In this document: piece after piece, positions 119 to 13,287 of the stretch
How the letters are laid out: every line of letters starts with the position of its first letter
Numbering within the stretch: the first letter of the stretch is position 1
Assembly: GCA_030619425.1 (NCBI GenBank)
Contig: JAUXBJ010000007.1
Location: 1 to 14,976 of the forward strand
DNA length: 14,976 nucleotides
Direction: 5' to 3'
Source of the DNA: a bacterium
GTDB taxonomy: Bacteria; Zixibacteria; MSB-5A5; GN15; FEB-12
Made by a program: the position numbers and the translations under genes
The notes under the pieces: model-generated
Seen by the model: the letters and a program-made list of their open reading frames with translations, nothing else
Told to the model about the DNA's origin: nothing
The model's database searches: none

Positions 119-928
119 CTACTGAGTAGTTGCCGACCGCTGTTTCAGGTAAGTTACAATCTCATAGACGACATACCCAATCACGAACAACGTAAACGCC
201 CAGAAAACGCCCGGGAACATGCCACTGTAGTGTTGGTTCGTCGAGTCGAAGGCGACACCACCCCAGTCAAACGTATCCTGCAGACGATTGATGAACAGCG
301 AGATTCGCGCCATCACCGTGAACCCGAACGACGCACCGAAACCGATCATCAATATCCAGATGCCGAACGTGGCCACGCGACCAAACACTCCGGTATGCTC
401 CTTGGAGAAGAAGAAATAGACAATGGCCGAAATGGTGCCGACCATGATCAGCAGTTGCGAGAAACCGCTGGTCACATCCAAAAGATTGAAACCGTCGTGG
501 CCGAAGAAATTGGCCCAGTCGATCTCCACCATCATCGCATGGAGCTGCTTGTTGACCTTGTTGGACATTTCCAGTGGAATCGCCAGACCGGCGGAGATAC
601 CGATATACAGCGCCATCGGCCACCGCGAAAGCCACGAGTAGTTCTTCGAAAACCGAGCCCACATCAGACACCCGAGAATCGCCGGGATTATGTACTCCCA
701 GTGTGACGAATTGAGAAAGCCGTAGTACCAGTCACCGTCCTCCAGCCGTTCGAACAACTTGGGGACCAGACCCTGGTGCCACAGGATGATGACGAAGTAT
801 CCCGCCGAAACGCCCACCACCAAATGCTCGGCAAACTTGTAAAACGGGTTGTCCTTATACAGGAAGGACATAGTGCAAAGCGTCACGAATACGCCGAAAG
901 TCAGCCAAAGAAAACTAGTGAATTCCAT
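119..928 (-). CDS. Cassette A gene 4: polytopic membrane protein with SKEHxG / FGASFG motifs
   Basis: Protein of 269 aa and unknown function, third paralogue of the families at 3909-4730 and 7582-8217. Shared landmarks are LYKDNPFYKFAEH (residues 23-35), SRWPMA (101-106), FFFSKEHTGVFGR (172-184) and FGASFGFTVMARISL (197-211). Several hydrophobic segments indicate an inner-membrane protein: about 5-22, 35-50, 78-92, 103-120, 157-173, 188-206 and 239-260. It differs from its paralogues by a C-terminal extension after the conserved core, with an extra membrane helix (about 239-260) and a short charged tail. The ATG at 928 is preceded by a strong GGGAGGG ribosome binding site and begins two bases after the stop of the gene at 931-1809, so the two are probably co-translated. 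It is the last gene of the twelve-gene run. No enzymatic motif is recognised, so the role as a complex subunit is inferred from gene order only. Confidence 0.85.
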   Translation of the reverse strand: MEFTSFLWLTFGVFVTLCTMSFLYKDNPFYKFAEHLVVGVSAGYFVIILWHQGLVPKLFERLEDGDWYYGFLNSSHWEYIIPAILGCLMWARFSKNYSWLSRWPMALYIGISAGLAIPLEMSNKVNKQLHAMMVEIDWANFFGHDGFNLLDVTSGFSQLLIMVGTISAIVYFFFSKEHTGVFGRVATFGIWILMIGFGASFGFTVMARISLFINRLQDTFDWGGVAFDSTNQHYSGMFPGVFWAFTLFVIGYVVYEIVTYLKQRSATTQ

Positions 929-930
929 TA

Positions 931-1809
931 CTATGCCCTCCCTTCACGTCTTAGTCGCAATTTGTTGGCGAAGAAGCCTACATTACCCATGATGATGAAC
1001 AATATGATCACCAGGTGAGCCGGGAGTTGAACTCTCATCCCGTCCTTGGCTCGACCGGGATTATCGGTGAGCTTCTCATATTGGGCGGCGCCTAACAGGC
1101 CCCCCATGATCCCGATAACCTGTCCGCTGCCGAGGTACGGGTAATACTGCGCCGTCATAACGCCGGTGAGTCCGAGCGCCAGATCAAAGCCGAAGCGTCC
1201 CTGACCATAAGAAATCCAGGCGTCGGTAATGTTGCCGCCGGAAATGTCGACAACTAAATCTACTTGATCGTAGTTGATGATACCACGCATCATCGGCACC
1301 TCATCAAGCGGTGTACCGTAGTAGTCGGTTGGATACGGCTGATTGAAGGCCTGCCCCATACCGAGAATCACTATCGCGTAGTATGGTTTGTAGCCAAGGA
1401 AACAGTAGTCAACGCCGTTGACAACCTCCCGGCCCTTATACATAACGCCGTTATACTCTTTGTCCCGGCTCACACTATCGGTTATATCGCGTATGGCCTG
1501 AACGCACATACCGGGTCCGTTCATGGAAAGCGCCGTGAAGATTGTCTTGATCTTCTTACGCCAGCACTGCTCCACGAGAGCGTAGGTCATCGGATGCAAT
1601 TCGGCCAGATTGTTTGGATCGTAATCTATCGCCACCAGCACAACAGAACCTTCCGGCAACCCTTCGACCTTGTCATAGATAGACTGGACCTCAGGCATAA
1701 CGAGAATGGGTACCGAGAAGCTGGAAGCATAGGCCCAGACGCAGACGATGATCAACAGCAGGAAGACCCACCGTCGGTCTAGTTTCATTAGTCTTTCAAA
1801 TAGTTCCAT
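931..1809 (-). CDS. Cassette A gene 3: membrane-anchored protein with DYDP soluble domain
   Basis: Protein of 292 aa and unknown function. One N-terminal membrane helix (about 14-34) follows a basic n-region (KLDRR). A soluble domain (about 40-262) comes next, then a C-terminal helix (264-281) ending in a basic tail. Positive charges at both ends place the soluble domain in the periplasm. Motifs shared with the paralogues at 4727-5641 and 8230-9240 are GSVVLVAIDYDP (54-65), LHPM (71-74), FLGYKP (137-142), the DYYGTP turn (162-167), QVIGIMGG...GAAQYE (230-245) and AHLVI...GNVGFF (264-280). I chose the ATG at 1809, not an in-frame start further upstream, because GAGGAGG sits seven bases before it and the upstream alternative would run into the previous gene. 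The stop overlaps nothing; the next gene starts two bases later. This copy has one N-terminal helix, against two in B and three in C. The alternating beta/alpha look suggests a Rossmann-like fold, which is inference. Confidence 0.84.
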   Translation of the reverse strand: MELFERLMKLDRRWVFLLLIIVCVWAYASSFSVPILVMPEVQSIYDKVEGLPEGSVVLVAIDYDPNNLAELHPMTYALVEQCWRKKIKTIFTALSMNGPGMCVQAIRDITDSVSRDKEYNGVMYKGREVVNGVDYCFLGYKPYYAIVILGMGQAFNQPYPTDYYGTPLDEVPMMRGIINYDQVDLVVDISGGNITDAWISYGQGRFGFDLALGLTGVMTAQYYPYLGSGQVIGIMGGLLGAAQYEKLTDNPGRAKDGMRVQLPAHLVIILFIIMGNVGFFANKLRLRREGRA

Positions 1810-1819
1810 AGCAGCCTCC

Positions 1820-2635
1820 TCAACCTCTACCCATATAGCCGCGTTCAATGCCGAGAATAATCTTCAGCGCCGTACCGACAATTCCCAGACCGATACCGAT
1901 CACGATAGCACGTTGCGCCGCCAGATTGGGCACATTCATCAACCAGTTGGAGGCGTTGGCCACATACTCGGCGCCGGGTATGACCGGGTTGAAACGCGAC
2001 ATCACCAGCAGGGCTGCCAACAAGAGCAGCGAGGCCAGTACGTTGCGCGCCCTGAAAGCGCGATAGGCGGCCGATGCGATGTAGAACGCCAAAAGCGAAA
2101 ACATCGTCGCCAGAATCGGCATCATAATGTGGTCGAAGAATATCTCGAACATGCTGTTTTCGAGCCCTTCCGGGGTGTACAGGAAGAAGGCCCAGGCATC
2201 ATCGAATATCGCCACCAGCACCGCAGCCACCAGAAATCCCACCGAAGCCAGAGCCCACATCCGTTTCTTGCCTGAGTCGGTGGACGCTCTGAGTCGCATC
2301 AGTGACACTATGCAGGCGCTACACAACATGATCCACAGGAAGTACAGCCCCCAGCCCTCGCCGGTCTGTTGGGTAAACCCGAAGGCAACCATCATATACA
2401 GACCAACCAGCGTGATGTAGGAGTAGTTGCCTCCTTCCTTACCCTGCTTGATCTTCTCCACCGACACTTTGAACAGCGACCAGATACCCAGCGCCAGAGC
2501 GAAAATGCCGATTACAATGATCCAGTCCAGCAGAAACTCGTAGACCCACTCAGACTTCTCATGCGGTACAAAGAACTGGAACACCATGAAGATGCCGAAG
2601 ATGAAGACCAGTCCGAAAGGTATTTGTCGTCTCAT
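1820..2635 (-). CDS. Cassette A gene 2: polytopic membrane protein, long form
   Basis: Protein of 271 aa and unknown function, the longest of three paralogues (224 aa at 5641-6315, 216 aa at 9237-9887). The extra length is an internal insertion with additional hydrophobic helices between the amphipathic block near KVSVEKIKQGK and the conserved second half. Shared features are the N-terminus MRRQIP, the block ASAAYRAFRARN in the second half, and the C-terminal QRAIVIGIGLGIVG...IILGIERGYMG, a glycine-rich last helix followed by a conserved ER pair. It is predicted to sit in the inner membrane with six or more helices. The ATG at 2635 is chosen because GGAGATGAAGGA directly precedes it and because the paralogues also begin MR(Q/R). 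It starts 13 bases after the stop of the gene at 2649-3878, and the next gene starts 10 bases after its stop. Its exact role is not known; conservation of gene order points to a subunit of the same complex. Confidence 0.83.
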   Translation of the reverse strand: MRRQIPFGLVFIFGIFMVFQFFVPHEKSEWVYEFLLDWIIVIGIFALALGIWSLFKVSVEKIKQGKEGGNYSYITLVGLYMMVAFGFTQQTGEGWGLYFLWIMLCSACIVSLMRLRASTDSGKKRMWALASVGFLVAAVLVAIFDDAWAFFLYTPEGLENSMFEIFFDHIMMPILATMFSLLAFYIASAAYRAFRARNVLASLLLLAALLVMSRFNPVIPGAEYVANASNWLMNVPNLAAQRAIVIGIGLGIVGTALKIILGIERGYMGRG

Positions 2636-2648
2636 TCCTTCATCTCCT

Positions 2649-3878
2649 TCAATCAATCACTTGGAACAGGGTTGTAAACTCAAACCATTCGAAGTTGGCC
2701 GCCAGCAACCCGACTATCGCCAGCGCAACAAACGCTGCCTTGGCCCAATCCTGAGCTTTCAACGAACCCAGCAACTTTGGTTCACGACCGAGATAGGCCG
2801 ACGCCGCGTAGAGTTCCTCACCAATCAATGTGTAGTCGCAGGCCACAATAAAGAACGGTATCTGAGCAATTTCATCAGTGCCGGATATCTGGATTGAGCC
2901 GGCCAGTGACCCTGTCTCGGCCAACAACAGCGACTCGGCGAAAAACTTACCCATATAAACACATGTAGCAGGCAGTTCCCTGAGCATGATACCGTTAACC
3001 GCCGCCACGTAGGCGAATTGTGACTGGGTGACAAAGTGAACGCAGTCCTCTTTGAAGTCCTCGGGACGACCGGCATCGAAGTACGACGACTTCACCACTT
3101 CCTGAGCAACCGACATAACAATCGGATCATAGGTCGGCACAATCAACTCCGTCTGGTACTCGGCGACGCGCTTGGCGACACGACCCAGAATCGTGAACGA
3201 GGCAATCGTAGCTACGTCGGCCGCCGAACCGAGACCCAGCACGTATAGAATGGGACGTCCCATCTCTGTGGCGCGCCCGATAGCGTCATCGACCGCTTCG
3301 ATACCTCCGATCGGACGAACGTACAGTTTCTTACCGCGTTTCGCGCTGAGCACGAAGAACGCTGTGAGCAGGCCGAAGATCAGCACCGCCACCAGCACCG
3401 GAATCCGGCCGGTGTTAAACCACTGACCCGAACACTGCACTGGACCCAGGACATCCGAGGTGGTGCGAATAGTCGGATCAGCCGTCACAGCGTCGATCTG
3501 GTAGAAGAGGTCGGTGTAGTCAGGTACGAACGCGCTGTCCAACGGTTCTTTCGATCCGATGTGCCTGAACTCACCCGTGCCGGCCGGCACCGCACCAACG
3601 CTGTCGAAAGGACCGTCGAACGAAGTGCTATAGAAGATTTCGTAACGCAGCACATTGTTCTTGCCGCCGCCATCGTCAGCCGAAGTTTCCCAGGTCACGA
3701 TGACAGCATGACCGTGATCGTTCGGTTTGTCTACCACCTGTACATCAGAGACCGCCGCCGGGAAGAGTTCAGTGGAATCCACCACCATACTATCCACCAC
3801 AGGCGGTTCCGTCTGAGCCCAGACTGAAGACAGGCCGAACAGCAACAACAGGCCAACTATCAGGAATCTATGCTTCAT
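2649..3878 (-). CDS. Cassette A gene 1: FnIII ectodomain plus DUF6754-like cytoplasmic domain
   Basis: Protein of 409 aa. A classical Sec signal peptide spans residues 1-21 (basic MKHR, leucine-rich core, VWA-Q cleavage). A fibronectin-III-like beta domain (about 40-145) follows, with VTWETSADD and YQIDAVT strands. Then come a membrane helix (about 160-178), the basic stop-transfer AKRGKK and a cytoplasmic domain (185-380), with a hydrophobic C-terminal helix (about 381-395). The cytoplasmic domain carries GRATEMGRP (201-209), TILGRV (229-234), FFAESLLLAETG (312-323), PFFIVACDYTLIGEEL (341-356) and AASAYL (358-363). I tentatively match it to the family I remember as DUF6754, which needs a profile search. 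Counted by hand, residues 201-380 are about 57% identical to the cassette B copy with no gaps. The start has GGGAG seven bases upstream and lies 30 bases after the previous stop, the largest junction inside the twelve-gene run. Function is unknown. Confidence 0.88.
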   Translation of the reverse strand: MKHRFLIVGLLLLFGLSSVWAQTEPPVVDSMVVDSTELFPAAVSDVQVVDKPNDHGHAVIVTWETSADDGGGKNNVLRYEIFYSTSFDGPFDSVGAVPAGTGEFRHIGSKEPLDSAFVPDYTDLFYQIDAVTADPTIRTTSDVLGPVQCSGQWFNTGRIPVLVAVLIFGLLTAFFVLSAKRGKKLYVRPIGGIEAVDDAIGRATEMGRPILYVLGLGSAADVATIASFTILGRVAKRVAEYQTELIVPTYDPIVMSVAQEVVKSSYFDAGRPEDFKEDCVHFVTQSQFAYVAAVNGIMLRELPATCVYMGKFFAESLLLAETGSLAGSIQISGTDEIAQIPFFIVACDYTLIGEELYAASAYLGREPKLLGSLKAQDWAKAAFVALAIVGLLAANFEWFEFTTLFQVID

Positions 3879-3908
3879 AAGCTTCTCCCTGTCTGATGAG
3901 AGAATCGT

Positions 3909-4730
3909 TTAAGATATTATTTCCAGCCAATCTCTGAATAGGAAAGTAATGCGCCCTACCAACAGTGATATGCGACCCATCACCGTGTAACCGAACGACG
4001 CGCCAAAAGTAATCATCAAAATCCAGATACCCAATCGTGACGCGCGTCCGAAGGCGCCGGAATGCTCCTTGGAGAAATAGAAGTAAATGATACCGCAAAT
4101 GACACCAAAGAATATCACCCAGTTAGATACGATCGCAGCCAATTGTCCGGTAGCGGACAGGTCCAGGTTGGAGATGAAAGCGCCGAACCCCTGCCATCTG
4201 TGCGGATCCTCGCCCAACAGCGGCATGAATGTCGATGACACCTGTACAACAAAGTCCGAGCGCAAATAGCGCACAAAGTTCAACCCGGCGGTGGTACCCA
4301 CTATCATAGCCAACGGCCAGCGCGACATCCAGCCATACTTCTCCGTGAGACGCATCAACAACATGATGCCGAGTATCACCGGGATCCAATATGTTATGTT
4401 CCAGCCACTGGCCTGGTACGGTTGTTGGAAGTAATTGGACAGACCTTCCGACAACCTGGGAAAGAGGTTACCGACGATCGTCGACCAGAAAGCCTGACAC
4501 ATCCAATAGGCCGCCGACACACCGACATAGAGATGCTCGGCGAACTTATAGAACGGATTGTCTTTGTAAAGGAACGAGTAGATCGCCAGAGTCAGGAAGG
4601 CCGCCATAGTGATCATGAACGCGCGCTCAATACCATCTGCCTCACCCGACATCGATACGGCATGAAGAACCCAACTCAGCCCAAACAGCAGGACCACGCC
4701 TGCAACCACAATGTAAGTCGTGCGCCTCAT
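3909..4730 (-). CDS. Cassette B gene 4: polytopic membrane protein with SKEHxG / FGASFG motifs
   Basis: Protein of 273 aa and unknown function, paralogous to the genes at 119-928 and 7582-8217. It has the family landmarks FLYKDNPFYKFAEH (53-66), SRWPLA (136-141), FYFSKEHSGAFGR (217-229) and TFGASFGYTVMGRISLL (241-257). Compared with the cassette C copy it has an additional N-terminal membrane helix (about 5-24) before the conserved core, and a longer loop in the middle. It is predicted to be an inner-membrane protein with about six to seven helices. I chose the ATG at 4730 because its ATGA overlaps the stop of the upstream gene and GGAGAGAGGG precedes it; a start further upstream would lie inside the previous gene. 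The conserved SKEH/FGASFG segment is the most strongly kept part in all three copies and may line a helix-helix interface or pore. That is inference; no known transporter signature is seen. Confidence 0.86.
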   Translation of the reverse strand: MRRTTYIVVAGVVLLFGLSWVLHAVSMSGEADGIERAFMITMAAFLTLAIYSFLYKDNPFYKFAEHLYVGVSAAYWMCQAFWSTIVGNLFPRLSEGLSNYFQQPYQASGWNITYWIPVILGIMLLMRLTEKYGWMSRWPLAMIVGTTAGLNFVRYLRSDFVVQVSSTFMPLLGEDPHRWQGFGAFISNLDLSATGQLAAIVSNWVIFFGVICGIIYFYFSKEHSGAFGRASRLGIWILMITFGASFGYTVMGRISLLVGRITFLFRDWLEIIS

Positions 4731-5641
4731 CGGCCCTCTCTCCTGCGACTGCGGAAGAAAGCGACGTTGCCGATGACGATGAAGCATATGATCACAATGT
4801 GCGCCAGTGTCTGCGGCCCCATCATCTTAAGACCGGGTTGGGCCATGTTTTTGAATCGTTCGTGACGATGGGCCAACTCCGATTCGTACTCGGCCGCGCC
4901 CTTGACCCCACCCAGCATTCCGATAATCTGTCGTGGATAGTACGGGTACAACTGGGGCGCCACCACCGCCGCCACGCCGACACCGATCGGCACATCGGCC
5001 GGATCGCCCACGAACAACACCCACTCCTTGGGTCCCGGACGACCGCCACCAAGAGCCACGATCAAATCGAAATCGGCACACGAGTTGATCTCATCGAATA
5101 TCACCGCACTGTCCAGCGGCACTCCGTTCACATCGGTCGGGAACATCTTCTTGAAATCCGACACGATCACGTTGAGCACGCCTTCGTTGCCCGCCTTGTA
5201 ACCAGTACTGATAAAATCAACGCCGTCAATCAAATCGGGAAACTCCGGCCGGATCACATCCTCCAGCGTGTTGAACAAAAGAGTTTGTCCGGTGGCCCAC
5301 AGGGACATGAAGACTACCTTATGCCCTCTGTCGAGGCAATGAAACGAGATAGCGTTGGCCATCGGCTGCACTTCCGGCGCCATGGCCGGATCGTAGTCAA
5401 ACGAAATAAGAACACGCGACCCGGGCGGAAGCGTATCGATGTGATCGAAAAGACCTTTCACAACCGGTGAGGCGTGCTCCTCAAATGTAATCGGGAACAG
5501 GATCGGCGCCGCGACGGCTACAAATATGAAAACAAAAATGACCCGGCGCTCGACCTCACGACCTTTTATGGATCGAAACAGCAGCCAGGCCAGACCGCCG
5601 AAAATCACCAACATCGAGATTATCACGCCGAGATACGCCAT
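4727..5641 (-). CDS. Cassette B gene 3: membrane-anchored protein with DYDP soluble domain
   Basis: Protein of 304 aa and unknown function. Two N-terminal helices (about 3-22 and 34-51) are joined by a basic loop (RSIKGREVERR), which positive-inside logic puts in the cytoplasm. The large soluble domain (about 55-278) is therefore periplasmic. A C-terminal helix (280-297) ends in RSRRREGR. Family motifs are GSRVLISFDYDP (74-85), VQPM (91-94), STGYKAGNE (145-153), DVNGVP (170-175), LYPYYPRQIIGMLGG (231-245), GAAEYE (248-253) and AHIVI...GNVAFF (280-296). A GTG lies one codon upstream, but the ATG at 5641 is preferred because GGGAGGGG lies at proper spacing from it and the GTG would sit too close. 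The TGATG arrangement overlaps the upstream stop by one base. The domain has several conserved Asp residues (DYDP, FDLIV) that could bind a metal or ligand, which is inference. Confidence 0.86.
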   Translation of the reverse strand: MAYLGVIISMLVIFGGLAWLLFRSIKGREVERRVIFVFIFVAVAAPILFPITFEEHASPVVKGLFDHIDTLPPGSRVLISFDYDPAMAPEVQPMANAISFHCLDRGHKVVFMSLWATGQTLLFNTLEDVIRPEFPDLIDGVDFISTGYKAGNEGVLNVIVSDFKKMFPTDVNGVPLDSAVIFDEINSCADFDLIVALGGGRPGPKEWVLFVGDPADVPIGVGVAAVVAPQLYPYYPRQIIGMLGGVKGAAEYESELAHRHERFKNMAQPGLKMMGPQTLAHIVIICFIVIGNVAFFRSRRREGR

Positions 5642-6315
5642 CACTTGTCCCCTCCCAGATACGAGCGTTCAATGCCCAATATCAACCGTAGCGACATCGA
5701 AATGACACCCAACCCGATACCAATCATGATGGCGCGCTGTCCGGCTAAGTTCGGGGAATTCATGATCCAAATGGCTAAGTTTGGAATCTGCAAAAGCGAT
5801 GTGGAATCCGGGACCCAATAAGTGAGCATCACTCCAAACGGTGTCCTGCCCAGAAGAATAATAAACGCCGCTATCAACAAGAGGGTTGCTTCACGATTCT
5901 TGGCTCTGAAGGCGCGATATGACGCCGAGGCCACAAAGAACGCCAGCAGCGAATACATGGTCGCACTCAAAGGATACTGCACTGAGTTGAAAATATCGTA
6001 GAACAGAGAGCCGGGTGCATCCACGGCTGAGGCGATGTCGCCGGGGTTGCCGATCTTGAACAAACCCGCGATCAGCATCACAAGGAATCCAACGATCGTG
6101 ACTATCGAAAAACCCCAGTCTCGCTTCCGCTTTCTCAGCTTGTTTATATGGACCCTGAGCAGGTTGCCGCCGCCAAGGAAAAAAGCAAACACCGCGATGA
6201 TGTCGAACCAGATGTTGAATGTTGTCTCCAGGTCCCCAAACGGCGGGATGAAGACCGACACGATCAACAGGGTGCCGACAATAAACGTGATTAACAGTGG
6301 TATTTGCTGTCTCAT
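5641..6315 (-). CDS. Cassette B gene 2: polytopic membrane protein, short form
   Basis: Protein of 224 aa and unknown function, paralogous to the genes at 1820-2635 and 9237-9887. About five hydrophobic segments are visible: 5-24, 35-52, 70-86, 115-132 and 142-157, plus the C-terminal 193-214. A strongly basic loop (KLRKRKRD, 59-66) follows the second segment and should be cytoplasmic. Signature blocks are MRQQIPLLIT (1-10), PLSATMYSLLAFFVASASYRAF (about 115-136), and AGQRAIMIGIGLG (191-203) with LILGIERSYLGG at the end. The first residues match the cassette C copy almost exactly. The start ATG at 6315 lies seven bases after the stop of the FnIII gene, and no good Shine-Dalgarno is seen, so translation may depend on coupling to the upstream gene. 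The stop overlaps the start of the next gene. No catalytic motif is recognised. Confidence 0.85.
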   Translation of the reverse strand: MRQQIPLLITFIVGTLLIVSVFIPPFGDLETTFNIWFDIIAVFAFFLGGGNLLRVHINKLRKRKRDWGFSIVTIVGFLVMLIAGLFKIGNPGDIASAVDAPGSLFYDIFNSVQYPLSATMYSLLAFFVASASYRAFRAKNREATLLLIAAFIILLGRTPFGVMLTYWVPDSTSLLQIPNLAIWIMNSPNLAGQRAIMIGIGLGVISMSLRLILGIERSYLGGDK

Positions 6316-6322
6316 ATCAAGT

Positions 6323-7582
6323 TCAACTCGAGGAGAATACTTTCACTAACCAGGCATGCAAGTCTGTCATTATTCCAACATCCCACGCCTCACTCATGGT
6401 CACCGCCACTACGCCAAGTAGAATCGTGATCATGGCGATTGCCTTGCCTACATCCTGACCCTTGAGCGAACCTAACATCCTCGGTTCACCTGACAGGTAA
6501 GCGGAGGCGGCGAATAACTCCTCACCGATGAGGGTGAAATCGCAGGCGGCAATAAAAAACGGTAACTGCGCCGGACGGGCCGTCCCGGCAATCTGAATGG
6601 CGCCGACTGAGTTGCCGGTCTCGGCCAGAATCAGCGATTCTGCAAAGAAGGCACCCAACAAAAACACGGTTGCCGGTTTCTCGCGAACCATCAGACCGTC
6701 AACTGCGGCGACATAGCCAAACTGTTCATCGGTAACATAGTTGACCATGTCATCACTGTAAGCATCCGGACGCCCGGCCGCCTGGTACGAAGCCTTGATC
6801 GTCTCACGCGCCGCCGTCATCACCAGTGATCGAGCTACCGGCATAAAAATCTTGCTGTCGTAGTCGGCGATAGTGCGCGAAACTCGTCCGAGGATAGTCA
6901 ACGCCGCCAGTGTCTGCACATCGTCCATGTCGTGAATGCCGGGGATGAACAACACCGGTCGACCCATCTCAGTAGCCCGACCGACCGCCTCGTCGATCGC
7001 TTCCAATCCGGCGATCTTGCGTACAAACAGTTTCTTGCCGCGCTTGGCCGTCTCGACATAGAAGATTATGGCAGCCGAGATAATAATCATGATGATAAAC
7101 AGATAACCGCGCCTGAAATTGATCCACTCCCGCTGTGGTGATTTCGACTCGGTGTGAATCGACGGGTACTCGCCGCTCTCGGTGAGGGTGGCGACATAGT
7201 ACACATAAGAACTGTCCAACTCGACATTCTTGTCCGTGTAGTTGCCGACTCCGGGAAGCAGATCGACTATTGGCTCGGCGTCTCCCCCATTGACCGCACG
7301 GTAAACGCGGTAGCCGGTGACCTTGCTATCGATGAGCTGATCATCAATCGACGGCACCCAGAACAGCCTCAGTGAGTCACCGTTATCGTACCTGCCATCC
7401 TCCACCAAAAGCGTCGTCACCGGCGCGGCTGTGATCGATACGGTGTCATCGACCACGGTCGTGTCCAACAGAGAATCACTCTGACCGAAAGCAGACGAGC
7501 AGGTAGCCAGAGCTATAACTATAATAGACAGAAACAGATGTACGGATAAACGCGGGGATGTCGCTGCCAGTGGTAACGACAC
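6323..7582 (-). CDS. Cassette B gene 1: FnIII ectodomain plus DUF6754-like cytoplasmic domain
   Basis: Protein of 419 aa starting at a GTG. The frame is open further upstream to 7816, but that part is only the shadow of the upstream gene 7582-8217. The GTG at 7582 overlaps that gene's stop by one base (TAGTG), has a GGGGATGATAGGA stretch just upstream, and gives a proper signal peptide (one Arg, hydrophobic core 14-27, AFG-Q near 34). The layout is an FnIII-like domain (about 50-145), a membrane helix (about 160-176), basic TAKRGKK, a cytoplasmic domain (185-380) and a C-terminal hydrophobic helix (about 381-396). Its landmarks match the other copies at the same residue numbers: GRATEMGRP 201-209, TILGRV 229-234, FFAESLILAETG 312-323, PFFIAACDFTLIGEEL 341-356. 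By hand count, residues 201-380 are about 69% identical to cassette C and 57% to A. The DUF6754 label is a recollection to be checked; the activity is unknown. Confidence 0.87.
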   Translation of the reverse strand: MSLPLAATSPRLSVHLFLSIIVIALATCSSAFGQSDSLLDTTVVDDTVSITAAPVTTLLVEDGRYDNGDSLRLFWVPSIDDQLIDSKVTGYRVYRAVNGGDAEPIVDLLPGVGNYTDKNVELDSSYVYYVATLTESGEYPSIHTESKSPQREWINFRRGYLFIIMIIISAAIIFYVETAKRGKKLFVRKIAGLEAIDEAVGRATEMGRPVLFIPGIHDMDDVQTLAALTILGRVSRTIADYDSKIFMPVARSLVMTAARETIKASYQAAGRPDAYSDDMVNYVTDEQFGYVAAVDGLMVREKPATVFLLGAFFAESLILAETGNSVGAIQIAGTARPAQLPFFIAACDFTLIGEELFAASAYLSGEPRMLGSLKGQDVGKAIAMITILLGVVAVTMSEAWDVGIMTDLHAWLVKVFSSS

Positions 7583-8217
7583 TATCCTATCATCCCCAGC
7601 CAGTCGCCCAGAAGGAAATCCATCCGTCCAATCAACAGTGACATACGACTCATCACGGTGTAACCGAACGAAGCTCCGAAGGTGATCATAATGAAGAAAA
7701 TTCCAACCCGTGCGGCTCCCCCAAACGCACCTTTGTGTTCCTTTGAGAAGAAGAAATACACCAACCCGGTGAAGGTTCCCACGACGATTACCAAACTGCT
7801 GATAATTGCACCCCACCCGGCATCAAACCCACTTGCGTAGCTGATCGAAAACAGCGGCTGGATCGTCGCCTGGACCTGGACCATGATATTCGAGGCCAGG
7901 TAGTTCATCAGCCAGAGACCACTGGTGGCGCCGACGATAAAGGCCAGTGGCCACCGCGAGATCCATCCGATCTTCGGCACCAGCCTCAACAGCATCAGGA
8001 AGCCGAGAGCAGCGCCGACGAAGAGCATAGGCTCATCCTGCCAGCCATCCCAGAACTTGCCGACAAGATTGTCCCAGAACAACGTCACAAACCAGAATCC
8101 GGCCGAGATACCGACAAAGATCGCCTCGCTCAGTTTGTACCAGGGATTGTCCTTATAAAGAAAGGAGAGAATCCCGAGAGTCAGGAAAGCTGAAAGCCAG
8201 AGTGCGAAGTGCTCCAT
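7582..8217 (-). CDS. Cassette C gene 4: polytopic membrane protein, minimal form
   Basis: Protein of 211 aa and unknown function, the shortest and probably minimal form of the family also found at 119-928 and 3909-4730. It keeps SFLYKDNPWYKLSE (18-31), RLVPKIGWISRWPLA (78-92), YFFFSKEHKGAFGG (154-167) and ITFGASFGYTVMSRMSLLIGR (178-198, split here by a small loop). About five membrane helices are visible: 5-20, 32-47, 64-78, 89-108 and 138-156, followed by 170-188. The arginine after FG in the other two copies is a glycine here (FGGAAR). The ATG at 8217 follows a TAGGAG ribosome binding site that contains the previous gene's stop codon. Its own stop overlaps the GTG of the next FnIII gene by one base. 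It therefore links cassette C to cassette B at the translational level, with no room for an intervening promoter or terminator. Confidence 0.86.
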   Translation of the reverse strand: MEHFALWLSAFLTLGILSFLYKDNPWYKLSEAIFVGISAGFWFVTLFWDNLVGKFWDGWQDEPMLFVGAALGFLMLLRLVPKIGWISRWPLAFIVGATSGLWLMNYLASNIMVQVQATIQPLFSISYASGFDAGWGAIISSLVIVVGTFTGLVYFFFSKEHKGAFGGAARVGIFFIMITFGASFGYTVMSRMSLLIGRMDFLLGDWLGMIG

Positions 8218-8229
8218 AAGTGCCGGCTC

Positions 8230-9240
8230 CTAATTCCCTTTCAACTTCGACTTGCGACCACTTCTAAAGAAGGCCACGTTGCCGATTATGATAAAAGCGA
8301 TCACGACCACATGTGCAAACGTCTGTGACAGCATGAACTTGGTGCCTTTTGCCCGATACTCTGCGACCGCCTCAAACTCGGCCGCGCCGCTCATGCCGCC
8401 CAACAATCCCTCCAACTGCCCGGCGTTGAGATAAGCATACATTACCGGCGCCTGCACCGCCGTGTTACCGGCGCCCATGAGGAGGCCATAACGATCGACG
8501 GCTATCTGCACCCATTCAACCGTGCCGGGAAAACCGGCTGACAGATTAACCGAGAAGTCGACGTTGGAGAAATTCCGCACGTTTCTGACCAGTGGTATCT
8601 CTCTATATGGTGTGCCTTCGTAGTCACTTGAGAACATAGATTCAAAGGAACTGCCCATGCGCTGGATCACAAACTCATTACCGGCTTGAAATCCCAAATT
8701 GACGTAATCCTCTCCGTACTGGAGGTTCTTGGCCAGGATCGCCGAGTCTTCAAACACTCTCTCCAGCGCCAGATTGGCCTGCTGCGGTCCCTGGGGCCAC
8801 AACCCCATCACGATAACTTTCAGATCTCTCTCGAAACACACCCGGATGATCGACTCCGCCATCGGCTGCAACTCCGGCGCCGAAGGTGGATCGTAATCGA
8901 ACGAAATCAGAACCTTGGAACCGGCCGGCAACTCCATTATGGCTTCATGAAGCTGATAGACTTCAGGTGAGATCGTAATTTTCTGTGAAAACGACATGAA
9001 TAGCGGCAGCGCCACCGCAAAGCCTACATAGACAAATACTACCCGTCGTTCAATCAGCCTCCCCTTCAGAGTGAGAATCAGTATCCATAATAGGGACAAG
9101 CCAATGAAAGCCATCACAATAAAAGATAGCAACGTCGGGAACTCAAACGTTCCCCAACCCCACACTTTACCGAGGTAGAAGATCAGGGCAAACAGGCTGA
9201 TCACGCCCAGGGCGATGAGTTCTTTGGTTCGAACGCTCAT
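8230..9240 (-). CDS. Cassette C gene 3: membrane-anchored protein with DYDP soluble domain
   Basis: Protein of 336 aa and unknown function, the longest of its three paralogues. Three N-terminal hydrophobic helices are seen (about 8-26, 35-57 and 67-83), with the basic loop KGRLIERR between the second and third. The soluble domain (about 88-305) is then predicted to be periplasmic, and a C-terminal helix (309-325) ends in RSGRKSKLKGN on the cytoplasmic side. The family motifs are GSKVLISFDYDP (107-118), ELQPMAE (123-129), VNLGFQAGNE (180-189), DYEGTPY (206-212), QLEGLLGGMSGAAEFE (275-290) and AHVVV...IGNVAFF (309-325). The start ATG at 9240 overlaps the previous stop as ATGA. The N-terminus of this copy has one more helix than B and two more than A, while the DYDP block and the C-terminal anchor are constant. 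The conserved acidic block may be a ligand or metal site (inference only). Confidence 0.86.
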   Translation of the reverse strand: MSVRTKELIALGVISLFALIFYLGKVWGWGTFEFPTLLSFIVMAFIGLSLLWILILTLKGRLIERRVVFVYVGFAVALPLFMSFSQKITISPEVYQLHEAIMELPAGSKVLISFDYDPPSAPELQPMAESIIRVCFERDLKVIVMGLWPQGPQQANLALERVFEDSAILAKNLQYGEDYVNLGFQAGNEFVIQRMGSSFESMFSSDYEGTPYREIPLVRNVRNFSNVDFSVNLSAGFPGTVEWVQIAVDRYGLLMGAGNTAVQAPVMYAYLNAGQLEGLLGGMSGAAEFEAVAEYRAKGTKFMLSQTFAHVVVIAFIIIGNVAFFRSGRKSKLKGN

Positions 9241-9887
9241 TTGCCGCCTCCGATATGCGCGCGCTCAAGCCCAAGGATGATTCTGAGCGATGTGGAAACA
9301 ATCCCCAACCCGATCCCGATCATTATTGCGCGTTGTCCGGCCGCCTGCGGGACGGTCATCACCCACGAGGCCAGATCAGACAACTGCCACCCGATCGGCA
9401 TGAACGACGACAGGGTATGCCCAACCGGCACCCGACCGATCATGACAAAGAAGGCTGCTATCAACAGTAGTGTAGCCTCGAAATTGCGAGCCCGAAAAGC
9501 GCGATACGAAGCCGACGCCACAAAAAAGGCCAGGATCGCGAACATGGTCGCCGACAACGGGATGTAAACAAAGTTGTAAAGCCAGTCAAACGATGTGCCG
9601 GGATTGCGGAAACCACGCCCCTCAGCTATCCCGATAATAGTCATCAAGAGGAAAGACGCGATGATAACCGCCGCGTAGCCCCAGTCCTCCTTGCGCCGAT
9701 AGGTCTTCTCTATGGACACTTTCAACAGATTAAGCGCACCGAGGATGATGGCGCAGGCTCCCACAATCGAGAACCAGTCGGAGAACCAGTCGCTCATCTT
9801 GCCGAACGGCCAGTGCGGAATGAAGTACTGGATGACGAATCCGATGCCGACTATGGCCGTGATGAGCAGGGGTATTTCTTGTCGCAT
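9237..9887 (-). CDS. Cassette C gene 2: polytopic membrane protein, short form
   Basis: Protein of 216 aa and unknown function, paralogous to the genes at 5641-6315 and 1820-2635. It begins MRQEIPLLIT, nearly the same as the cassette B copy. Hydrophobic segments lie at about 5-24, 38-55, 71-87, 108-126, 136-150 and 186-205. The KTYRRKE loop (61-67) is probably cytoplasmic. Conserved blocks are PLSATMFAILAFFVASAS (110-127), YRAFRARNFEATLLL (128-142), and AGQRAIMIGIGLGIVSTSLR (183-202) followed by ILGLERAHIGGG. The start ATG lies one base after the preceding stop (TAATATG) with only a weak ribosome binding site, suggesting reinitiation by ribosomes finishing the FnIII gene. Its stop overlaps the next start by four bases. 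Such tight packing of every junction in the cassette is the main reason to infer a stoichiometric complex. The molecular role is unknown. Confidence 0.85.
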   Translation of the reverse strand: MRQEIPLLITAIVGIGFVIQYFIPHWPFGKMSDWFSDWFSIVGACAIILGALNLLKVSIEKTYRRKEDWGYAAVIIASFLLMTIIGIAEGRGFRNPGTSFDWLYNFVYIPLSATMFAILAFFVASASYRAFRARNFEATLLLIAAFFVMIGRVPVGHTLSSFMPIGWQLSDLASWVMTVPQAAGQRAIMIGIGLGIVSTSLRIILGLERAHIGGGK

Positions 9888-9888
9888 A

Positions 9889-11145
9889 TTAGTCTATCAC
9901 CGAAAACAGGTTGGAGAGTTGGAAAACACCGAATGTCTCAAGCAGGACTCCCAACAATATAGCAGCCAATACGACTCCCTTGCCCATATCCTGTCCTTTG
10001 AGCGACCCAAGCAATTTCGGCTCCTTGGATAGATAAGCCGAAGCTGCAAACAATTCCTCACCTATCAGGGTATAATCACACGCCGCTATGAAGAACGGCA
10101 ACTGCGACGGCATAGCCGTGCCGGCAATCTGGATGGCGCCGATCGAGTTGCCGGTTTCAGCCAAAATCAGCGACTCGGCATAGAACTGCCCCATGAAAAA
10201 GATCGTGGCCGGCTTTTCACGTACGAAAAGCCCATCGACACCGGCTGCGTAACCGAATTGATCATCGGTTAGGTAGTGCACCATGTCGTCTTTGTAAGCA
10301 TCAGGCCGTCCCACTTTGGAGTGGGCCTCTTTGAGCACCTCACGCGCCGTCACCATCACCATCGAACGACAAACCGGCACATCAAGATATGTCTCGTACT
10401 GGGCCGACATCTCCGCCACTCTTCCCAGTATGGTCATGGCGGCAATCGTCATCATATTGTCCATGTCGCCAATGCCGGAGATGTAGAATATCTTCTTGCC
10501 CATCTCGGTGGCGCGCCCGACCGCCTCGTCGACCGCTTCCATTCCAGCAATCTTGCGAATAAACAGCTTCTTGCCGGCTTTGGCCTGAGCAATGTAGTAA
10601 ATGATGAAAAACGACAACAGACACATGCCGACCAGGGTGTTGATCCGCTGTTTATGAAACCACTGCGGCGTTGATGTGATCGGCCCGGCCATATCCGATT
10701 CCGATGTGAATTCGGACTCCTCGCCTGCCTCATTATAGACTACGTTGACGGCAACCACCTTATAGAAGTAGGAAACATCATCCGATGTGTTTCCATCATC
10801 AGAGGAATAATCAGTTTTACCCGCCGGAGAATCACCTACCTCGGTGAACTCCCCCGGCTGACCGTTGACGGCCTCGGCACGCATAACCCGATACAGCCTG
10901 ACCTTACCACCCGAGTAGTCGTCAGCCGATGGCATCCACGACACCGTGATCGATCCACCGGCATCGTTGTCGGTGTCGGCCACCGTCACATTAGTGACCG
11001 GGGCTGGAGTCAGGTCCAGTTCCATGCTGCTTGCGATTGAGTCTGACAGAACGCTCTCAAGCGTATCAGGTTCCGTCTGGGAACAGACGGTAATAGGTAT
11101 CAGACAAATAAGTGAAAGGATTAACAGAGATATCGGACTTAACAT
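9889..11145 (-). CDS. Cassette C gene 1: FnIII ectodomain plus DUF6754-like cytoplasmic domain, first gene of the operon
   Basis: Protein of 418 aa if it starts at the ATG at 11145. A hydrophobic export signal (about 5-22) is followed by an acidic stretch and an FnIII-like domain (about 48-155, with ITVSWMPSADD and YRVMRAEAV strands). Then come a membrane helix (about 168-187), basic QAKAGKK, the conserved cytoplasmic domain (about 194-388) and a hydrophobic C-terminal helix. Landmarks are GRATEMG (210-216), TILGRV (238-243), YAESLILAETG (322-332), PFFIAACDYTLIGEEL (350-365) and AASAYL (367-372). The start is uncertain. The ATG has no clear ribosome binding site, whereas a TTG at 11175 has GGAAAG upstream and would add a basic IPRRYKADR n-region that suits a signal peptide. 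A further TTG at 11205 is possible. VCSQ near residue 21 is a poor lipobox. The family is tentatively DUF6754-like and function is unknown. Confidence 0.84.
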   Translation of the reverse strand: MLSPISLLILSLICLIPITVCSQTEPDTLESVLSDSIASSMELDLTPAPVTNVTVADTDNDAGGSITVSWMPSADDYSGGKVRLYRVMRAEAVNGQPGEFTEVGDSPAGKTDYSSDDGNTSDDVSYFYKVVAVNVVYNEAGEESEFTSESDMAGPITSTPQWFHKQRINTLVGMCLLSFFIIYYIAQAKAGKKLFIRKIAGMEAVDEAVGRATEMGKKIFYISGIGDMDNMMTIAAMTILGRVAEMSAQYETYLDVPVCRSMVMVTAREVLKEAHSKVGRPDAYKDDMVHYLTDDQFGYAAGVDGLFVREKPATIFFMGQFYAESLILAETGNSIGAIQIAGTAMPSQLPFFIAACDYTLIGEELFAASAYLSKEPKLLGSLKGQDMGKGVVLAAILLGVLLETFGVFQLSNLFSVID

Positions 11146-11340
11146 ACGATCAGCTTTGTACCGGCGAGGGATCAAAATGCTTCTTTCCAGGTTGTTGCAG
11201 TCCAATCGATAACCGGCTATCGGCCATCGCTGATTGCATTTGAAGTTTGCAAGTGGGCTCTCCGGGAAAACTCATCCAGATCACCCCACGCCGGTTTAGA
11301 GACGCGGCAAACCTCATCATTGTGCAAAACAACAGTGGGC

Positions 11341-11369
11341 AATCTATGGCAGCCCTTAAATCAAGTCAA
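11341..11369 (-). promoter_or_regulatory. Candidate sigma-70-type promoter of the twelve-gene operon
   Basis: On the minus strand, TTGACT (11369-11364) is followed after exactly 17 bases by TAGATT (11346-11341). These match the consensus boxes at five and four of six positions. It is the best-looking promoter upstream of the gene at 9889-11145 and would give a leader of roughly 190 bases to the ATG at 11145. The match is by eye, and the sigma specificity of this organism is unknown. Confidence 0.35.
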
Positions 11370-11442
11370 GGAAAAAAGGGGGCAACGCGCAACCCGCGAG
11401 ATTGGTGATTCAATCGCCACTTTTTCTTTGACCTCCAAAGCC

Positions 11443-11471
11443 TTGAACAATAGCTTGTCAAGCATGACAAT
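11443..11471 (+). promoter_or_regulatory. Weak candidate promoter for the plus-strand membrane protein gene
   Basis: TTGAAC (11443-11448) and GACAAT (11466-11471) are separated by 17 bases, each matching four of six consensus positions. Transcription would begin about 80 bases before the GTG at 11558. The -10 box overlaps the second arm of the inverted repeat at 11455-11470, so a bound regulator could block it. Both points are by-eye inference. Confidence 0.25.
11455..11470. promoter_or_regulatory. Operator-like inverted repeat TTGTCA-N4-TGACAA
   Basis: Perfect six-base arms (11455-11460 and 11465-11470) are separated by four bases, between the divergent genes and overlapping a possible -10 box on the plus strand. 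The size and position fit a dimeric regulator site, but a chance six-base palindrome is not unlikely and no regulator gene is present in the window. Confidence 0.25.
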
Positions 11472-11557
11472 CTGTTTGATCAGAGCTACAGAACCCAATC
11501 ATTCAGGTATGACCCGAACTCGATGAACCATAATATGGCGCCAGACAGGGCTGAACA

Positions 11558-12721
11558 GTGATAGAAGTAATCATACTGACCGCCGTTCTGATGTACAAGT
11601 TTGGTCCTGCTCTTTCCGGTTTGTCTTACACAAGGCTGGACAATGCTCTACTTAACCACGAACAACGACGTGGGCGGTTGGTGTGGACGATCCAGATTTC
11701 TGCACTACTGGTCGTAGCTGCATGCTTGTACACCCGCGTGGACGTTGGATGCGCTTATCTGGGCGGACACTACGCGCGGCTGGCGGCTGATCCCTTCGCC
11801 TTCGATGCCGACAACCCGGTTTCATATCGTATTCTCACTCCTTTGATTAGTTACCTCCTCGGGCTGAGGCAAGGTTGCATGATCAACCTCACCAACCTGA
11901 TTATGGCCGGGCTGTTGATCGGATGGGTGTATGCGACTTTCCGCAAGGTTGCGGCGCGTCCCGGCGACGCCTTCCTGGCAGCCGTAACCATTACCTGCTC
12001 GCTGGCCGTTCTCACCTCGATCTACTGTGGCGGCTATACCGATGTATCGACCTATTTGGTGATTTTTCTAATGTGGCGATACCGTGATCGCAGGATTCTG
12101 TTCCACGTCCTGTTTTTGTTGGGGCTCTTCAACCGGGAGTCGATAGCATTTCTGATCCCCTGGTTCATACTCATAAGCTTGCAGGATGCCCGGAAAAAGA
12201 GCCTTCGCATACTGGAACTGGCTCTTGGTTTCATTGCGACGCTAAGTCTCTACTATCTCTTCCGTTTGTGGGTTAGCTCTCAGCAGGATGTGATCTACTC
12301 TTTGGATTACTACATCCGACCATTTCTGGAGGACCCTATTGGTCGGATACGCCATACCGCGCCGTATCACGGACTGGGGCTCTTTTCCGTTTTCACATTG
12401 CTCTGGGTCTTCCCGGTGATGGCCGCCATCGCCTGGTGGAAAGAACGTGCCCACTACGAACTGCTCGGCCTGATCCTTCTTGTTTTCTGCCCCTATATGC
12501 AACTGTTCATTGCAGACGATACGTCCCGCCTGTTTACGCTTGGTTTCATGATCATGATTGTAGCTCTCCACAAACTACTGACTACGGCTTCTACGCACTT
12601 TAGGAAGTACGCCTTCTGGCTGATCCTGCTCAATTTGTTTGTGCCACAACTGTACACTGCGGGTGACACAGTTGAGGTGTTTCAGTCGGCATCGACTTAC
12701 CTGTTCAACCTCGTTTGGTAG
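11558..12721 (+). CDS. Polytopic GT-C-like membrane protein of unknown function
   Basis: Protein of 387 aa with about ten hydrophobic helices. They include 2-18, 41-58, 93-102, 108-127, 138-155, 163-174, 180-207, 219-237, 274-292, 301-317, 325-342 and 351-364, some of them short. Recognisable features are NPVSYRILTP (86-95) after the first large extracytoplasmic loop, GLFNRES (189-195) in a central helix and DDTSRLFTL (320-328). I associate such motifs with integral membrane proteins resembling GT-C glycosyltransferases; no catalytic assignment is possible. The GTG at 11558 is the first start after an in-frame TGA and has AGGG eight bases upstream; an ATG at 11591 is the alternative. The gene is divergent from the membrane-module operon and convergent with the GT/TPR gene on the right. 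It may share a role in surface glycan assembly with the latter, which is inference from neighbourhood only. Confidence 0.75.
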   Translation: MIEVIILTAVLMYKFGPALSGLSYTRLDNALLNHEQRRGRLVWTIQISALLVVAACLYTRVDVGCAYLGGHYARLAADPFAFDADNPVSYRILTPLISYLLGLRQGCMINLTNLIMAGLLIGWVYATFRKVAARPGDAFLAAVTITCSLAVLTSIYCGGYTDVSTYLVIFLMWRYRDRRILFHVLFLLGLFNRESIAFLIPWFILISLQDARKKSLRILELALGFIATLSLYYLFRLWVSSQQDVIYSLDYYIRPFLEDPIGRIRHTAPYHGLGLFSVFTLLWVFPVMAAIAWWKERAHYELLGLILLVFCPYMQLFIADDTSRLFTLGFMIMIVALHKLLTTASTHFRKYAFWLILLNLFVPQLYTAGDTVEVFQSASTYLFNLVW

Positions 12722-13116: not shown

Positions 13117-13181
13117 AATGAAAAACCCACCCGACGCTGAAGCTCTGGGTGGGGTACCGTTTTGTTCTTGGCGGAAGATAC
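13117..13181. repeat. 65-bp palindromic repeat, copy 1
   Basis: This is identical to 13223-13287 at 63 of 65 positions (differences at 13123 and 13141). It contains CCCACCC (13126-13132) and GGGTGGG (13147-13153), which form a hairpin with a 14-base loop. The GGTGGGGTACC at 13148-13158 can instead pair with GGTACCCCACC at 13184-13194 in the spacer, a perfect 11-base inverted repeat, so two folds compete. Confidence 0.8.
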
Positions 13182-13222: not shown

Positions 13223-13287
13223 AATGAAGAACCCACCCGACGCTGAGGCTCTGGGTGGGGTACCGTTTTGTTCTTGGCGGAAGATAC
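13223..13287. repeat. 65-bp palindromic repeat, copy 2
   Basis: Second copy in direct orientation, 106 bases after the first. Its hairpin arms are CCCACCC (13232-13238) and GGGTGGG (13253-13259). Unlike copy 1 it is not followed by the GGTACCCCACC partner, so only the local hairpin can form. Open frames crossing both copies translate to proline- and serine-rich strings typical of non-coding repeats. Confidence 0.8.

Follow-up and report, generated by a model that had tools for sequence, protein, structure and literature searches.

Three diverged tandem copies of a four-gene module for predicted membrane proteins, headed by DUF6754, in Candidatus Zixibacteria

The DNA analyzed here, referred to as the window, is an entire contig of 14,976 bases (G000:C51) from a draft genome of Candidatus Zixibacteria (2.33 Mb, 413 contigs, 69% complete). 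Its positions 119 to 11145 are filled by twelve open reading frames (ORFs), which encode four protein families, F1 to F4, three times over. The described systems closest to this locus each cover part of it. The Pfam entry PF20539 (DUF6754) is a single domain of unknown function; the full domain is present in all three F1 proteins of the window, and the system adds F2, F3, and F4, for which there is no Pfam family over cut-off. GlmL-type accessory proteins are considered reactivases of cobalamin mutases, and glutamate mutase E is the known partner of GlmL. The zixibacterial MutL, encoded near many of these loci, exceeds the cut-off of the GlmL/MutL family PF13941 (related models are NF040745, accessory_GlmL, and TIGR01319, glmL_fam); it differs in being longer than the domain and in having a 375-residue protein (K375) as its partner, accompanied in many genomes by the membrane blocks, and glutamate mutase E is missing from most genomes. 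PilM together with PilN/O/P of type IV pili is an envelope machine with an actin-like/ASKHA cytoplasmic ATPase. The zixibacterial system resembles PilM-type machines in that one gene neighborhood encodes a predicted ASKHA-type cytosolic protein together with single-pass and polytopic membrane partners, but F1–F4, MutL, and K375 match no component of a pilus or other named machine over the Pfam or NCBIfam cut-offs. The fibronectin type III (FnIII) domain, found in titin and others, is similar by profile to the extracytoplasmic N-terminal part of F1; it is a common module and uninformative on the function of the block. We found no described system of this make-up; knowledge of its function may yet place it within a familiar type of machine.

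All twelve ORFs lie on the minus strand. In transcription order they form block A (A1–A4), then block B (B1–B4), and then block C (C1–C4), each in the order F1-F2-F3-F4. An earlier note on this DNA had claimed that the same four families recur three times in the same order and on the same strand, and this was borne out. The features are listed below (aa, amino acids; TM, transmembrane segments).

11146 to 11557, no strand: gap of 412 bases between A1 and a divergent ORF
9889 to 11145, minus strand: A1, family F1, 418 aa; PF20539 at 408 bits
9237 to 9887, minus strand: A2, family F2 (GIGLG...ER protein), 216 aa; about 6 predicted TM
8230 to 9240, minus strand: A3, family F3 (DYDP protein), 336 aa; predicted extracytoplasmic domain between membrane helices
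7582 to 8217, minus strand: A4, family F4 (SKEH/FGASFG protein), 211 aa; about 5–6 predicted TM
6323 to 7582, minus strand: B1, F1, 419 aa; PF20539 at 404.5 bits
5641 to 6315, minus strand: B2, F2, 224 aa
4727 to 5644, minus strand: B3, F3, 305 aa from GTG (304 from the ATG at 5641)
3909 to 4730, minus strand: B4, F4, 273 aa from the ATG at 4730
2649 to 3878, minus strand: C1, F1, 409 aa; PF20539 at 382 bits
1820 to 2635, minus strand: C2, F2, 271 aa from the ATG at 2635
931 to 1809, minus strand: C3, F3, 292 aa from the ATG at 1809
119 to 928, minus strand: C4, F4, 269 aa

A3 has two additional N-terminal helices, and C4 has an additional hydrophobic segment at its C-terminus. The B1 start is a GTG at 7582, which has one base in common with the A4 stop. 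From A1 to C4 the junctions are 1, −4, 12, −1, 7, −4, −4, 30, 13, 10, and 2 bases (negative values are overlaps); these values depend on the gene starts chosen for the window ORFs, and with the starts used here the statement that every junction is an overlap or a gap of at most 30 bases is exact. A promoter-like site is present at 11369 to 11341 (minus strand), inside the 412-base gap 5' of A1, but it is no evidence by itself, because promoter-like sites were not in excess in the window (9 found versus 11.5 ± 3.5 expected). Terminator-like sites showed no clear excess there either (20 found versus 15.4 ± 4.0 expected), and an Rfam scan and a tandem-repeat scan of the window gave no match. The contig ends 118 bases past the C4 stop.

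Within each family, the three window copies are homologous across most of their length. BLASTP comparison of every within-family pair gave 42.5–52% identity for F1 (E 2e-94 to 2e-127), 32–52% for F2 (E 2e-33 to 3e-74), 30–41% for F3 (E 6e-39 to 2e-68), and 39–46% for F4 (E 4e-43 to 5e-64). Between different families the best BLASTP value among the 12 proteins was E 0.78. A common origin of F2 and F4, or of F1 and F3, was rejected at profile-profile probabilities below 1%, and one of F1 and K375 was rejected for lack of profile similarity.

PF20539 matched A1, B1, and C1 at 408.4, 404.5, and 381.7 bits (cut-off 27) over 251–255 of its 257 positions. The earlier note had described F1 as FnIII/DUF6754-like; F1 is a clear member of this catalogued Pfam domain and not merely like it. 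With Pfam fn3 on single sequences, A1 reached 13.8 bits versus a cut-off of 25, and B1 and C1 gave no row at E 0.1. A profile of 44 F1 proteins matched titin FnIII at E 3.3e-28, with the best stretch at positions 43–133, and by this match the N-terminal part of F1 is assigned as FnIII. F2, F3, and F4 of the window had no family over the curated cut-off in Pfam or NCBIfam, F2 giving weak rows below cut-offs (TMD0_ABC, acyltransferase, and TraX).

Membrane topology was predicted from mean hydropathy and counts of lysine plus arginine in 133–144 sequences per family. F1 is predicted to have an N-terminal hydrophobic segment (a signal peptide by eye), an outward FnIII part, a transmembrane segment, a cytoplasmic DUF6754 domain, and a second transmembrane segment; DUF6754 is placed inside by lysine plus arginine counts near the ends (7.8 versus 2.3). 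In this cytoplasmic part, conservation across the whole set of subtypes reaches 95% or more at 67 positions, many of them polar (counted from the alignment). F2 is predicted to have about six helices with both ends inside, and F3 an outward domain of ~220 residues with both ends inside. For F4 about six helices are predicted, with uncertain placement of its ends.

DUF6754 was present in all 132 genomes of the phylum that were searched, with 1–6 matches each (most often 5, by eye; several copies in most), and in none of 14 control genomes. In twelve better genomes the matches were mostly a tandem group at ~3–4 kb spacing plus lone copies; the exceptions were G010, with a pair only, G115, with a pair 5.7 kb apart, and G027, with one copy distant from the other two. 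Among nine loci of A1 relatives, F1 identity was 94 and 93% for the nearest, 88–55% for six from Candidatus Zixiibacteriota, and 52% for Candidatus Eisenbacteria. Further named F1 relatives, among at least 8000, were records of Krumholzibacteriota, Latescibacteria, and Marinimicrobia.

Up to 20 kb of sequence was read around each array and 14 kb around each lone copy, and genes in these loci were called with profiles built from the window families, with starts taken from the longest frame; one step of gene calling left out ORFs with more than 5 unknown residues. With the window and four Eisenbacteria loci counted in, this yielded 162 blocks in 76 arrays, and 145 of the 162 were complete F1-F2-F3-F4 blocks. 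A block was closed at any break in gene order; therefore, disorder would surface as incomplete blocks. Seven of the 17 incomplete blocks lay within ~230 bases of the end of a stretch and three within 400 bases of a run of N; the other seven were near neither (G040, G062, G086, G088, G007 twice, and G120). The stretch at L104, whose location had been guessed, holds no block. Gaps within blocks, determined in an earlier set of 147 blocks, had a median of 3 bases; 386 of 411 were at most 30 bases and 139 were overlaps. Arrays contained three blocks in 35 cases, two in 13 (some of them cut by contig ends), one in 27, and four in 1, so that the survey proposed in the earlier note for one-, two-, and three-copy versions found all of them. 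Complete blocks also occur solo elsewhere in the genomes and singly in a second phylum, one complete block being present in four of seven Eisenbacteria genomes, and those four having one DUF6754 match each. The proposal that the four products work together is supported by the 145 complete blocks, the solo and second-phylum blocks among them.

The arrays of G023, G026, and G027 are split, with runs of exactly 100 N located 51–393 bases from a block; because of these runs, we judged the splits to be probable scaffold joins and set the three genomes aside. Runs of exactly 100 N adjoin split arrays at L055, L093, L094, and L100, in genomes listed with one contig; these, too, are probable scaffold joins. 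At L048, L080, and L081, other genes lie between blocks, including a recurrent insert of ~147 residues that is CBS-domain-like by eye (3 genomes). The fourth DUF6754 gene of the source genome (L044, G000:C35, 3 to 770, minus strand) is cut by a contig end and apparently of the short type described below; it is adjoined by a TPR protein and by a PKD protein with FlgD/Por-type C-terminal sorting domains.

The three blocks are distinct subtypes. In three-block arrays, the closest relative from a different genome occupied the same array position for 98 of 102 F1, 99 of 103 F2, 98 of 102 F3, and 95 of 99 F4 proteins. The positions formed their own clades in each of the four gene trees, from which incomplete ORFs were excluded. 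Across these trees the best clade held 30–33 of 31–34 members for position 1, 31 of 34–35 for position 2, and 28–33 of 33–35 for position 3, with support from 0.57 (F3, position 3) to 1.0 and with 0–2 members of a foreign class (5 for F1 position 3). The exceptions were mainly from G102, G109, G111, G120, and G121, which have arrays of other make-up. A concatenated tree, rooted on Eisenbacteria, had 157 tips from the 162 blocks, those with fewer than two usable genes being left out. In this tree B (36 blocks, support 1.0) was sister to A (48 blocks, support 0.82) plus a 69-block clade (support 1.0) that comprised C (41 blocks) and two solo subtypes, D (9 blocks) and E (10 blocks), each with support 1.0. 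Because the position clades are common to distant genomes, the duplication was of whole blocks and took place before many of the sampled families split. No gene exchange between blocks was evident in the trees, which were not accompanied by a formal test for it.

The order A-B-C was found in 30 of the 49 multi-block arrays, a set that includes L058 with an extra F1 ahead of a D block. The other 19, several of which run off contigs, were A-? (5), A-C (4), A-B (3), A-C-? (3), and four further types once each; the arrays read in G008, G009, G010, G102, and G109 showed no B. The ratio of nonsynonymous to synonymous substitution rates (dN/dS, ω) for the twelve genes was 0.03–0.14 between the window and its near relative L035, and 0.03–0.11 between the window and the farther L051, for which dS was partly saturated. 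All 12 genes look to be under purifying selection. Subtype-specific fixed residues were found at 15, 17, 12, and 9 columns in F1–F4, versus 79, 37, 26, and 41 columns common to all subtypes. The position clades, the A-B-C order, and the low ω values support the claim that the three versions are not redundant, and from them we infer a difference in function.

The F1 proteins of D and E are short (medians of 297 and 284.5 residues versus 421.5–442.5 in A–C); judged by length, they appear to lack the FnIII stretch and keep the remainder. Their surroundings differ from those of the A-B-C arrays and have no theme common to them. The D block (L109 6559 to 9682; also L111, L113, L117, and L119) lies within a conserved housekeeping stretch with Obg, PTS enzyme I type, bact-PGI isomerase, nucleotidyltransferase, SAM synthetase, and SAH hydrolase genes; these families were assigned by Pfam on L109 and one L117 gene, and DprA by eye only. 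The E block (L057, L059, L064, and L110) is divergent from genes for a solute-binding protein and permeases, and near it are an ABC-2 exporter pair and an OmpA protein (Pfam on L057; other loci by clustering or by eye).

Two further genes are linked to the arrays, as seen in draft genomes whose contig ends cut off some of the neighborhoods. A MutL-like gene lay upstream of 23 of the 49 multi-block arrays (13 divergent, 10 on the same strand), and K375 was nearby in 23 (12 divergent, 11 on the same strand and upstream). When only the 38 arrays with at least 5 kb read upstream were counted, MutL was present in 21, K375 in 21, and neither in 17. MutL, K375, and A1 follow one another in that order on one strand in distant families (G010, G090, G096, G102, G109, and G125), sometimes with an ORF between them. 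At four loci where MutL was read away from the array, K375 was two genes from MutL in three (G044, G088, and contig C337 of the source genome, whose MutL and K375 are on contigs C135 and C337); in G008, K375 remained beside the array and MutL did not. MutL exceeded the PF13941 cut-off in 123 of the 132 genomes, and K375 was likewise found in 123. Mean column identity was 82% for MutL (10 sequences) and 76% for K375 (11 sequences). A pyruvate phosphate dikinase-like gene was downstream of 27 of the 49 arrays (Pfam on one).

Seven genomes contain a second MutL fused in one frame to a K375-like part (868–982 aa, with varying neighbors), which argues that the two proteins act together:

L137, 9063 to 11858: MutL-K375 fusion
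L138, 8010 to 10958: MutL-K375 fusion
L139, 7965 to 10808: MutL-K375 fusion
L140, 2267 to 5068: MutL-K375 fusion
L141, 7450 to 10233: MutL-K375 fusion
L142, 8006 to 10825: MutL-K375 fusion
L143, 8435 to 11041: MutL-K375 fusion, cut by the contig end

In Eisenbacteria, DUF6754, MutL, and K375 were found in the same four of seven genomes, and the other three were without all three. MutL and K375 were neighbors in the three Eisenbacteria MutL loci read. Small genes Y and X precede three of the four Eisenbacteria blocks, and on the fourth contig the pair was not seen. In Zixibacteria, members of these two families lie upstream of MutL-K375 at 5 loci for X and at 4 for Y. Y has two helices and a PH-like tail by a sub-threshold bPH_6 match, and a search with protein X gave 13 uninformative matches, one of them named Gemmatimonadetes. 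The positions of these genes at two loci are:

L121, 8102 to 9057: Y/X families ahead of the Eisenbacteria block
L123, 8859 to 9747: Y/X families ahead of the Eisenbacteria block

The zixibacterial MutL is ~600–650 aa long versus 450 positions for the domain. One such protein (L053, 12753 to 14576) matched the GlmL models below their cut-offs (NF040745, 234.6 versus 475; TIGR01319, 176.7 versus 204), and glutamate mutase E (PF06368) was over cut-off in 5 of 129 genomes and found in 7 of 129 at E 1e-3. Since the GlmL cut-offs were not reached and glutamate mutase E is mostly absent, the zixibacterial MutL is most likely a protein of GlmL-like sequence that is not a glutamate mutase partner; a role as GlmL partner of that mutase was rejected on the latter ground. 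MutL belongs to the ASKHA family, and we presume on that ground that it binds ATP. Both MutL and K375 are predicted to be cytosolic. K375 alone, compared with solved structures, gave uracil-DNA glycosylase inhibitor at E 0.08, and its profile gave RNA polymerase beta' at E 0.014–0.05 and geranylgeranylglyceryl phosphate synthase at E 0.018; these are leads at most. An ExbB/TolQ-type gene was near K375 in 10 of the 49 arrays, all with divergent MutL-K375, and on C337 in the source genome; a link to Tol-Pal was rejected, this gene being taken as a mere neighbor of MutL-K375.

The earlier note had recognized no named system of this composition, and our results agree. The profile searches it had proposed gave a Pfam domain over cut-off only for F1 and matched no known complex; beyond PF20539 and FnIII, the window proteins had no match over a curated cut-off in Pfam or NCBIfam and none in PADLOC, PHROGs, or the PDB in the scopes searched. 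Profiles of F2, F3, F4, and MutL matched no PDB sequence. In PADLOC, no family reached E 0.01 for MutL, K375, or any of the 8 block A and block C proteins (block B was not scanned), PHROGs gave none at E 0.01 for blocks A and C, and A1 had no homologue among 50,697 phage records and 72,556 plasmid records. A defence island was therefore rejected on the PADLOC result for blocks A and C, and mobile-element cargo on the absence of A1 from phage and plasmid records and of PHROGs from the same two blocks. No paper naming DUF6754 or PF20539 was found in the library searched, and the titles and abstract openings surveyed contained no description of these genes.

The block structure, its conservation, the subtype orthology, the low ω values, and the linkage and co-distribution of MutL and K375 are direct observations, and the composition of the system is well supported. 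For its mechanism we tentatively favor, short of calling it probable, a reading in which F1–F4 form one envelope membrane complex whose A, B, and C versions co-assemble or act side by side and are served by MutL-K375. As subunits, the four proteins would together make up a single integral-membrane complex in the cell envelope, with F1 as its anchor (FnIII outward, the conserved DUF6754 toward the cytoplasm), F3 contributing a large extracytoplasmic domain, and F2 and F4 forming a polytopic core. The putative operon would make three anciently diverged versions together, and these would join, or work next to one another, within a single larger envelope machine; D and E would be additional versions encoded elsewhere. 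MutL and K375 would dock on the cytoplasmic DUF6754 domains, and ATP turnover by MutL-K375 would drive assembly or conformational activation. The part most strongly suggested is that F1–F4 form one membrane complex; next comes service by MutL-K375 from the cytosol, which is suggested because DUF6754 is predicted to face the cytosol and both genes are linked to the arrays. Co-assembly of A, B, and C is favored on the ground that their adjacency and order persist while D and E lie apart, but independent complexes working in parallel would account for the data almost equally well. A stricter version, a twelve-subunit hetero-oligomeric machine with three paralogous four-subunit modules in fixed, non-equivalent positions, driven by MutL via K375 as adaptor, we consider unlikely.

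Several results weigh against the favored reading. MutL was not in the stretch read for 26 of the 49 arrays, including the window and the same-genus loci L051, L087, and L088, although 11 of the 49 were read for less than 5 kb upstream. In the source genome, MutL and K375 are not on the contig of the array. Because there are lineages with no more than two blocks, without B, or with genes between the blocks (G115 and G120), three-way co-assembly cannot be a requirement in all of them. The D and E blocks are located away from A–C. The Eisenbacteria co-distribution comes from seven genomes of untold completeness that are not independent by descent. The matches of K375 to solved structures are marginal, and MutL, F2, F3, and F4 have none by profile. 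Use of ATP by MutL is presumed from its family, and contacts among F1–F4 are hypothetical.

It is quite possible, short of probable, that A, B, and C are instead three parallel, independent F1–F4 complexes, each with its own outside ligand or partner (FnIII and F3 differ), and that they are co-transcribed only as a result of tandem duplication and of being needed under the same conditions. The solo D and E loci and the four Eisenbacteria genomes with a single DUF6754 match indicate that one block suffices, and the subtype-specific fixed columns and the two-block arrays (some of them cut by contig ends) fit such complexes as well. However, A-B-C are contiguous and ordered across families although D and E lie apart, and the tight packing and overlaps of the genes fit a fixed stoichiometry. 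The tandem arrangement itself would also be expected from recent amplification for gene dosage with functionally identical copies, an explanation we find scarcely credible and rejected, because the copies are only 30–52% identical and the subtype trees place nearly all of them closest to the same position in other genomes.

Two other readings concern the task of the system. The 67 conserved, often polar cytoplasmic positions of F1, together with a MutL that exceeds the PF13941 cut-off and matches GlmL models below theirs, would suit a membrane enzyme in which DUF6754 is catalytic or binds a cofactor and MutL is an ATP-dependent reactivase. This is improbable, since the cobalamin motif DxHxxG is not conserved (14 of 158 F1, 0 of 156 F2, 2 of 152 F3, and 2 of 147 F4), a CxxCxxC-like pattern occurs in none of F1–F4, Walker A occurs in 6 of 158 F1 and in none of F2–F4 (K375 was outside the motif scan), no enzyme family was found over cut-off, and glutamate mutase E is so rare. 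More improbable still is an envelope sensor or an adhesion or scaffold device, in which FnIII and F3 would bind wall or surface partners and DUF6754 would relay their state inward. The FnIII part and the extracytoplasmic domain that topology predicts for F3 speak for it, but the shorter F1 proteins of D and E appear FnIII-less by length yet keep the remainder, and no signaling domain was found over cut-off in Pfam or NCBIfam.

Whatever its task, DUF6754 is universal in the sampled phylum and, where its surroundings were read, nearly always heads the same four-gene block. The data place this domain of unknown function in a defined system, for which there are now a list of parts, a hypothesis on stoichiometry, candidate partners, and a test across phyla, and the locus is a clear case of a whole multi-gene module, not single genes, being multiplied and held distinct. 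If the twelve-subunit reading were true, the machine would belong to an undescribed, ATP-dependent class of envelope machines that Zixibacteria generally possess and that also occurs in other uncultured phyla.

The remainder of the window contains two further ORFs and a repeat. The divergent ORF at 11558 to 12721 (plus strand) encodes 387 residues with many hydrophobic stretches; its only match, to the cell surface glycopolymer family NF046093, is below threshold (31 versus 150 bits). The ORF at 13387 to 14976 (minus strand), which is open at the contig end, has a hydrophobic N-terminal part and C-terminal TPR repeats. Upstream of the putative operon, in a stretch without a convincing gene, a direct 65-base repeat is present at 13117 to 13181 and 13223 to 13287; its two copies are 97% identical and 106 bases apart.

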